Source: Zingiber officinale
Lineage: Eukaryota; Streptophyta; Magnoliopsida; Zingiberales; Zingiberaceae
Assembly: GCF_018446385.1 (NCBI RefSeq)
Contig: NC_056003.1
Coordinates: forward strand, 26,285,198 to 26,349,197
DNA: 64,000 bases
Reading direction: 5' to 3'
The stretch's first letter is position 1. Every line of letters starts with the position of its first letter. The notes beneath the pieces were generated by a model. It was given only the letters and a program-made list of their open reading frames with translations, had not been told where the DNA came from and searched no databases. Of the stretch, positions 21,401-24,400 are shown piece after piece. A program made the translations under genes and the position numbers.

Positions 21401-24400
21401 TTTTGCGTCTTGCGCTTTTGCCAACTATGGTTCTAGTTCTTAAATCTATATTATAGCTTGAAGTGCTTTATTGGCTTTAACTATAATTTTTTCCCCTGCA
21501 TTTTGCAGTTAGGATCTGTCATCTTTTAACACTTTGTTTCTACATTTGGACTCATTTGAAATCCATCAGATTCTAGAAGTTGTCTTCTTCCTATATTTTG
21601 ACTTAGAAAAAATGCTAGTTTTTCTAATTAAGCAATTGTTGGTAAATATTTCTTAAAATTTTTTAAATACAGGTACATCCATGCGGTCAGTATCGCAAGA
21701 ATACCATTGTTGGCATACTGCAGGCTGAACACAACTTAACACCACTGTACCGTATCCTTGATTGTAAATTTTATATTTTCTACTAAATTGATTTGAAATT
21801 TCTTAGTCTTGTTTATTTGTTTATACTTGTACAGTTTCATGCTTGGATGCCACTTGGTAAGCCTTCTTTTCTGCATATTTCAGCATTTTCCTTGACTAAC
21901 TGACTAATTTTGACAGCTGTGCATCGATTAGACCGTCTTGTTTCTGGTCTTCTTATCTTTGCAAAAAGTGCTGATAAAGCAGATTGCTTAAGACAACAGG
22001 TGGTCTGGATTTTTTTATTAAAGCTTCTGGTTGTATATATTATCTAAAAATTCTGGTAGTGGTCTTCTCTCATTTTGAAGCAAAACACCAGATTCTTTTT
22101 TATTACCGTACCTTGGAAAGTTTGCTGCTCCTTCATGAATATTATCAAAGAACTTTCTCTCTCTAGATGTGTAATATCATTGTTTGTCTTATAGATTGAG
22201 GCTGGGTTATTACGAAAAGAGTACATTGCTAAGGTGATTGGTGTGTTTCCCAATGAAGAGGTACTTCAAGATAATTACCATCATCATTTGTAGCTATAGA
22301 AATTAAGGAAGGTAGAATAATTGTATTGCTTATGTTAATGGGAGTATGGCAGATCTGTTTTTTTAGAAAAGTCAATTTACCATAGAGATCTGATTTTCAT
22401 GTTTACTTTTGCTATTAAATGATATTTTCTTAGTTATGCTATCTAGCTTTATTCTATCTATCTGAAACTTCTATTTTCTCCTCATTAGCTTCCAAGCCTT
22501 TGTAGCACAAGTTCAATAAAGAATGTCATCAAGTATAGCTTTTGAGAAGATCTTCAGTTTCTCCACTGAAGAAAATTCTCAAATCTACCTTTTTATTTTA
22601 TAATAATTTAATACTTATTAAGAAAGGAGATTGAGATCCACCGCATGTAATTTTTATTGTAATAAACATAATTTCCATTATTGGGATGAGTTTAACAGAG
22701 TAAACCTTTTGCTTTATTCAATCTTTAGGGTTAATGGTATGCTTTCTCATTGTTTTGTTTTTTTTTTCTTTTCTTTTCAGGTAGTTGTTGACGCAAATAT
22801 CAGCTATAACGCACGAGAAGGGAGAAGTTATGTGGAGGTATGACATTCTTTTCCATTAATTGAGTTTTTGTTTGATCTAATATACAACAAACTCTGTGAT
22901 CCACTGCACATTCCCCGGTCACCAAAATGTTTGATCTGTCATTCTTCCATTGATTGCTAATTTCTTGTTTGTGACTTATAATGCTTGTGAATGAAAACTG
23001 ACAGATGATTTCCCCTAGCTAATGCATTTAATGTCAATAATCAATATATATACATGATTAGCTTACAAGTAAAAGAGATAAGATAGAATATGCTTCCAAC
23101 TTCCAAGGTATGGATAATATTGTCTGTGATTATATAGTTTCTCTATTGTATTTGTACCTTGTCTATATTTCTGTGCAAGCTTGCATTTTGTCTTTAACAC
23201 TACAGAATATTCAGGTATGGATAATATGTCAATATTATTTTGTACAGATTGATGATTGCCATCTTGATAAAGCTTTGAGAGGAAAGACTGCATGCACAAA
23301 GTTTACACGGATCAGTACCAATGGGAAATATAGTCTAGTTTTGTGCCAACCTGTTACTGGACGTACCCATCAGGTACAGGGCAGCTAAAATTTATATAGT
23401 GATTTTTTTCCCCATGCTAGTAACTGTAAGGCTTAACATCAACTCACCTGTTGAAACTACTAGAAGTAACTTAATATTTTACTTGCATGATTTTTTATTT
23501 CTATTAAGATGGAGTTTTTTTTAATGCCTACTTGAATGTTGATAATTTTTTCAGTGAAGTTGTCTATTCATTTTTTTTAATTATACTTTTATCTACTGCA
23601 TAACTTGCGATCTCCAACTCTTTGGTTTTTTGTAATTAAAATGCATGCTTGTACTTCTACCTTGTTTCTTTTTAATAGTTATGAAGTGAAAAAAGGAACT
23701 TAGAGTAAGAGTTACTTGTGCCCAACAAAATACAAGTAGTCTGGGCTAATAAGTTTCGAAACACAATCAAACAAGTGCAAATGCATCAACATTATCCAAC
23801 AGGGAATAATGCTTGATGCCTATCAATTACCATATCATCTTTGTCATCCAAGAAACTTGGAACTTATTCTAATGTGCTTGTTGTCGAAACCTATTTACAG
23901 ATCAATATCACTGGCGTTCTAAAACTTTTTTCTTGTATCAGATCATCAACATTCTAGTGGTCATTATTTAGAAAGAGAATAAAGGTTACAGTCAACTCTT
24001 GATTTAGTGTAATGTTTACCTTTCTAAATCCCACAAGACAAGTTATAGTACAACAAATTATGGGCCCCAGTAATTTGGGCTCACCACGAAACAAGTTATA
24101 GTACAACAAGAGCAAACTGCATTGTGACCACTGATCTCTAAGGCCATCTCTAGTAGTACTTTGCTTGCTTAGATTATAATTGTCTATTTTGTACTCTCCC
24201 ATATCCTTGCACCTTCAATTATGAAACTACAATTGATTCACAAGACATAGTGACAAGGATTAGGATCTAGTATTTTTTGGAATCATCAATGATCTTTAAA
24301 TTACAATAAGTTACATTCAAAGTGATTATTTTAATTTTTCTCTATGCTCTGTTTTTTTAAAGGAAATAGATGTAGCTAGGCACTCAGAGGCTGTAGATTG

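Follow-up and report, generated by a model that had tools for sequence, protein, structure and literature searches.

The 165-base intron at 21752-21916 on the plus strand is, judged from its sequence, very probably an ordinary U12-type (minor-class) GT-AG intron, the sixth in a gene of 12 exons that codes for a pseudouridine synthase of the RluA family. The window in which it lies, i.e. the whole 64-kb stretch of DNA that was analysed, corresponds to positions 26285198-26349197 on contig C18 of the 3.09-Gb, 211-contig ginger assembly, which was also the genome that we searched. Confidence in the U12-type reading comes mainly from how improbable it is that an exact pair of U12-type motifs should arise by accident next to a U2-like donor. 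The intron most likely is real but ordinary, and it may be a weak one.

The host gene and its sixth intron

The gene and the elements around its sixth intron are listed below; the exons were assembled manually.

18429..27397, plus strand: RluA-family pseudouridine synthase gene, 12 coding exons, 392 aa
18429-18546, 18639-18682, 18774-18851, 19084-19184, plus strand: exons 1-4
19414-19501, 21673-21751, 21917-21999, 22195-22260, plus strand: exons 5-8
22781-22837, 23248-23373, 25943-26178, 27295-27397, plus strand: exons 9-12
21673..21751, plus strand: exon 6, upstream of the predicted U12-type intron, coding VHPCGQYRKNTIVGILQAEHNLTPLY plus one base
21752..21916, plus strand: predicted U12-type intron 6, between exons 6 and 7 of the 12-exon gene
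21752..21759, plus strand: U12-type donor GTATCCTT, 8/8 to RTATCCTT and 4/9 to the U2 donor consensus
21764..21769, plus strand: rival U2-like donor ATT|GTAAAT, 6/9 to the U2 consensus, in frame with acceptor 21916
21888..21896, plus strand: U12-type branch site TTCCTTGAC, 9/9 to TTCCTTRAY, putative branch A at 21895
21915..21916, plus strand: acceptor AG of intron 6, ending 21 bases after the putative branch A
21917..21999, plus strand: exon 7, which opens with the region of the catalytic motif (VHRLDRLVSGLL); HRLD is at residue 172

The spliced protein scores 213.5 bits against TIGR00005, for which the curated cut-off is 192.7, and 106.4 bits against PF00849. Structures of RluC, RluD and RluA are among its 10 PDB matches, and the alignment with RluC runs through the exon 6/7 junction with no gap there. 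The families matched were only those of the RluA type and PF00849, with no TruD-type catalytic domain among them. On the basis of these profile matches the gene is predicted to code for an RluA-type enzyme, and not for a member of the TruD family to which PUS7 of yeast and human belongs. The initial annotation had named it PUS7. That name fits the one which we take AT5G51140, presumably the Arabidopsis counterpart, to carry, but it does not hold in the yeast or human sense, as the product falls in the RluA family (TIGR00005) and is not a TruD-type Pus7. In excerpts of the plant literature Pus7 is treated as a TruD protein, with AT5G51140 listed as AtRLUA6 and AT3G04820 as a TruD gene (PMC8910892), and AT3G04820 is likewise matched to yeast Pus7 (PMC2956550); hence it would be an error to mix up the plant-named PUS7 (AT5G51140) with the TruD-type Pus7 (AT3G04820).

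U12-type introns are recognised by the donor consensus RTATCCTT and the branch-site consensus TTCCTTRAY, and similar strings appear in the literature (PMC5932401). Introns were scored by counting matches to these strings and comparing the counts with simulated chance, in place of a position-weight matrix. The exact donor at 21752 that had been claimed for this intron is present, as is the branch site reported about 21 bases before the AG. Intron 6 is 70% A+T, lies in phase 1 and ends in ...GACAG at 21916. Its removal creates the junction TAC C|CT GTG CAT CGA, read as Y-P-V-H-R, so that the product continues into ...YPVHRLD with the catalytic motif included and an open frame of 392 residues; the earlier statement that the exon phases agree is thereby confirmed, with the addition that other in-frame pairs exist. 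This gene and the RGH3/ZRSR2-like gene described below have 19 introns between them, of which intron 6 alone fully matches either U12 motif; the remaining 18, including all eight of the RGH3/ZRSR2-like gene, reach at best 7/8 for the donor and 8/9 for the branch site. Phase 0 is found in 7 of the 11 introns of the RluA-family gene. That intron 6 lies in phase 1 and has a non-purine ahead of its donor agrees with biases of minor introns given in portions of two studies (PMC10639083, PMC7367187).

The assignment to the U12 type is thus well supported by sequence, but the branch site is less ideal than had been implied. The upstream purine of TTCCTTGAC is G, which the available part of a study of plant introns describes as less favourable for splicing than A (PMC5932401), and the branch-to-acceptor distance of 21 bases is longer than the optimum of 11-13 quoted for U12-type introns in a passage of another report (PMC3584512). 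Pyrimidines account for 11 of the 20 bases just 5' of the AG, as against 8 to 20 in other introns of the gene, and this count is not diagnostic.

A region matching the window is found on contig C17, which was taken as the homologous chromosome, and the intron 6 region matches only these two haplotypes in the genome. C17 keeps intron 6 with three internal differences, namely CAG to CTG, TTTCAG to TTCCAG, and a branch site that reads TTCCTTGAT. Donor, branch consensus and AG are retained on both haplotypes, the branch site differing only by C to T at the Y position. The CAG to CTG change lies at the edge of a candidate hidden exon within intron 6 (21835-21856, between CAG and GTAAGC), which we rejected since C17 has CTG for CAG; moreover, splice sites of the U2 type are not expected to pair with the U12-type ones of the intron around them. 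Exons 1-11 are open on C17, and exon 12 was left unjoined there. The sequence of exon 6 also differs between the two haplotypes.

Several further features of the locus were observed. In C17:26609269-26618360 about 9 kb separate exon 11 from the last coding exon, as against 1.1 kb in the window (locus L069 spans the far end), and the C17 haplotype probably carries a large insertion in intron 11. The donor of intron 5 (19502-21672) is GC (GCAAGT) in the window and GT (GTAAGT) on C17, a GC-AG/GT-AG difference between haplotypes. Within the same intron, the segment 19680-20400 of the window contains stop-broken frames that by eye resemble a fragment of a plant LINE-type element.

A 999-bp piece at 18266-19264, comprising the upstream region, exons 1-4 with their introns and the start of intron 4, is repeated wholly or partly at no fewer than 38 other places in the genome (among the fragment loci L047, L050-L064, L066-L068, L073 and L074). 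This number represents 40 matches to 18300-19250 minus the two haplotype copies, and for 19 of those 38 the match is confined to the stretch that starts at about 18680. In the 19 copies compared, which show about 90-96% identity, the match always ends at 19264 and in 16 it starts at 18266; the shared sequence extends about 860 bp further upstream in 18 of 19 copies, the reference included. The ends of two copies were examined: L074 ends in CACTACAAGAAA...TTTCTTGTAGTG with a 3-base duplication AGA, and L073 has the same 5' end (CACTACAAGAAA) and a diverged 3' end. The gene fragment appears to have been picked up and multiplied by a DNA transposon of the CACTA type.

Chance expectation and the choice of junction

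In the 64-kb window (both strands) 2 of the 6051 GT dinucleotides start GTATCCTT, and a simulated intron has an exact TTCCTTRAY in its final 55 bases with a probability of about 0.0017. The joint chance of an exact donor and an exact branch site is about 6e-7 for a single intron and about 1e-5 for all 19. When 60 sequences of 64 kb were simulated and both strands counted, the combination of donor, branch site and AG within 200 bases had a mean of 0.017 per sequence, as compared with the one observed; when 2000 bases were allowed the mean rose to 0.4 per sequence, which indicates that spacing matters. A search of the 3.09-Gb genome with GTATCCTT-N(110-140)-TTCCTTRAC-N(8-24)-AG yielded 27 rows, several of them overlapping matches at one donor, and 27 in the reversed control, i.e. 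no enrichment. The genome-wide motif-pair search was accordingly dropped as proof of a U12 intron: since real and control rows are equal, the motifs by themselves prove nothing, and it is their coincidence with a coding junction that constitutes the proof.

Around this junction 14 of 100 GT-AG pairs leave the gene open, and three keep HRLD, from donors 21686, 21752 and 21764 with the acceptor at 21916. The initial annotation selected the donor with the exact motif and overlooked the U2-like in-frame donor at 21764, use of which gives ...LYRILDSVHRLD and a protein four residues longer than the 21752 version. Family models are split between the two versions. Those that rate the 21752 version higher are PF00849 (105.4 vs 96.4 bits), TIGR00005 (163.8 vs 159.3), TruC (68.5 vs 63.6) and TIGR01621 (66.0 vs 61.0), whereas the bacterial models for RluC (87.5 to 78.5), RluD (53.2 to 49.9) and RluA (52.4 to 49.6) prefer the 21764 version.

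These scores bear on the possibility that a real intron is removed by the major (U2) spliceosome, from 21764 or 21752, with the U12-like motifs being a relic or a coincidence. The donor at 21764, which is present on both haplotypes, surpasses that at 21752 in its match to the U2 consensus (6/9 vs 4/9), falls inside the 4-7 range of the other introns of the gene, and preserves both the open frame and HRLD; furthermore, the U2 branch-like sequences TAAC and CTGAC occur downstream of the U12 branch motif, ahead of the AG. Together with the preference of the RluC, RluD and RluA models these points would be consistent with U2-type removal, but the Pfam, TIGR00005, TruC and TIGR01621 scores run the other way, and a paralogue that has two matches in the genome, intronless at the spot of the junction, reads PVPVHRLG, like the 21752 version. 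A second pair of genome matches reads ELHMANRLD here and favours neither donor. As an exact U12 donor and branch site would coincide with a given junction by chance only about 6e-7 of the time, removal by the major spliceosome appears improbable. We regard it as extremely unlikely that there is no functional intron at all, the gene being a pseudogene or its structure misread. The scatter of fragments of its 5' half across the genome might point in this direction, but the fragments compared span only 18266-19264 and the intron region itself matches the two haplotypes only; in addition, the 12-exon frame is open and scores above the RluA family cut-off, and exons 1-11 are open on C17 as well.

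Minor spliceosome components and the RGH3/ZRSR2-like neighbour

Matches over the cut-off were found in the genome for the minor spliceosome RNAs U12 (3), U6atac (12, some of them weak and possibly pseudogenes) and U11 (4), against none in 14 control genomes for each. Complementary boxes are carried by these matches: GTAAGGAA is present in both U12 copies checked (2 of the 3 matches), GAAAGGAGAGA occurs in the best U6atac match, and TAAAAGGG starts both of the U11 copies viewed (2 of the 4 matches). U4atac gave no match in the genome and none in the control genomes either, and is hence uninformative. The window itself contains a U6 match at 61965-62067 (113 bits), which represents the U6 of the major spliceosome and not U6atac, and a tRNA gene match (Rfam) at 48561-48633.

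The same window was said to code for RGH3, a claim that stands to the extent that an RGH3/ZRSR2-like gene is present about 28 kb from intron 6:

50284-57832, minus strand: RGH3/ZRSR2-like splicing factor gene, nine exons, 756 aa, coding from 57832 to 50284

Proteins of the RGH3/ZRSR2 type are characterised by two CCCH zinc fingers, a U2AF-homology RRM and an RS-rich tail. Pfam recognises one CCCH stretch and an RRM in the first 402 of the 756 residues, and the best PDB matches of this part, whose alignments extend over the region of the second finger, are U2AF small subunits; the tail was judged by eye. A 191-residue core of the protein has 14 matches in the genome, of which eight are exon-wise matches of 65-98% on C17 and C18, four are single-frame matches of 39-41% on C7, C8, C15 and C16, and two are shorter ones on C9 and C10. 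The single-frame matches look like U2AF35-type genes. The gene in the window is plausibly the RGH3/ZRSR2 orthologue.

If intron 6 is removed by the minor spliceosome, as we infer, U11 and then U6atac would pair with the TCCTT of its donor, and U12 would pair with the TTCCTT in the branch motif, so that the A at 21895 is free to act as the branch nucleophile. The AG at 21916 would then be joined such that exons 6 and 7 read Y-P-V-H-R-L-D. A protein of the RGH3/ZRSR2 type might help in the recognition of the 3' end, as for U12 introns generally. As the purine of the branch motif is G and the branch A lies 21 bases from the acceptor end, the intron may be spliced with moderate efficiency. Were the intron retained, 11 residues would be added after residue 169, followed by a stop ahead of HRLD (172-175).

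According to a portion of the maize work, RGH3 mutants show more retention in about 46% of U12-type introns, as compared with about 0.46% of U2-type introns (PMC5896110). Any U12 intron shares this prior, and it is the only one that applies to intron 6 as an RGH3 target; the 28-kb proximity adds nothing, and maize rgh3 data bear on the ginger intron only via an orthologue. As an addition to the U12-type assignment, and not an alternative to it, intron 6 could be a specific regulatory target of the nearby factor, with the linkage being meaningful. The presence of the RGH3/ZRSR2-like gene in the window, with matches also near the RluA-family gene on C17, the maize retention figure, and the truncation of the enzyme before HRLD that retention would cause are all compatible with this idea, but splicing factors act in trans wherever U12 introns lie and proximity predicts nothing, so that we consider a specific targeting very unlikely. 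A related and unlikely proposal is that intron 6 is a deliberately slow, dose-sensitive switch, whose suboptimal branch site (G, 21 bases) would sense RGH3 and minor-spliceosome activity, with retention truncating the enzyme just before its catalytic motif. Under such a scheme the TTCCTTGAC and TTCCTTGAT haplotypes would differ in efficiency, and the U2 donor 12 bases downstream might perhaps serve as a fallback, giving the protein with four more residues when the minor spliceosome fails.

Significance and comparison with known minor-class introns

As a U12-type intron, intron 6 would add a further case to the minor-class introns of RNA-processing genes, a functional category enriched in them according to a section of one survey (PMC3584512). 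Its recognition has practical consequences, in that a gene finder that assumes U2-type introns could pick the donor at 21764 and thereby change the residues beside the catalytic motif. The branch site, with C on one haplotype and T on the other, offers a natural allele-specific test of a branch position of U12 introns in plants. A literature search that covered titles and portions of text returned no published record of a U12 intron in AT5G51140 or a pseudouridine synthase, and a search of titles for the PVHRLD/PIHRLD motif turned up nothing of use for plants; the intron may well already be listed in a database.

Two plant introns documented in part of the published literature are the closest known parallels. 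A U12-type GT-AG intron of Glycine max, GTATCCTTCA...TTGTCCTTGACC (Table 1 of PMC7367187), has the same donor octamer, TCCTTGAC branch core and GT-AG ends as intron 6; however, it is a different intron and lies in phase 0, as opposed to phase 1 in ginger. Intron 4 of CBP20 of land plants, as described in an excerpt of PMC5932401, is likewise a minor-class intron of a plant RNA-related gene, with a T+A content of about 65% as compared with 70% in intron 6. The CBP20 intron has AT-AC ends and almost always an A at the upstream branch purine, whereas intron 6 of the ginger gene has GT-AG ends and a G at that position (PMC5932401).
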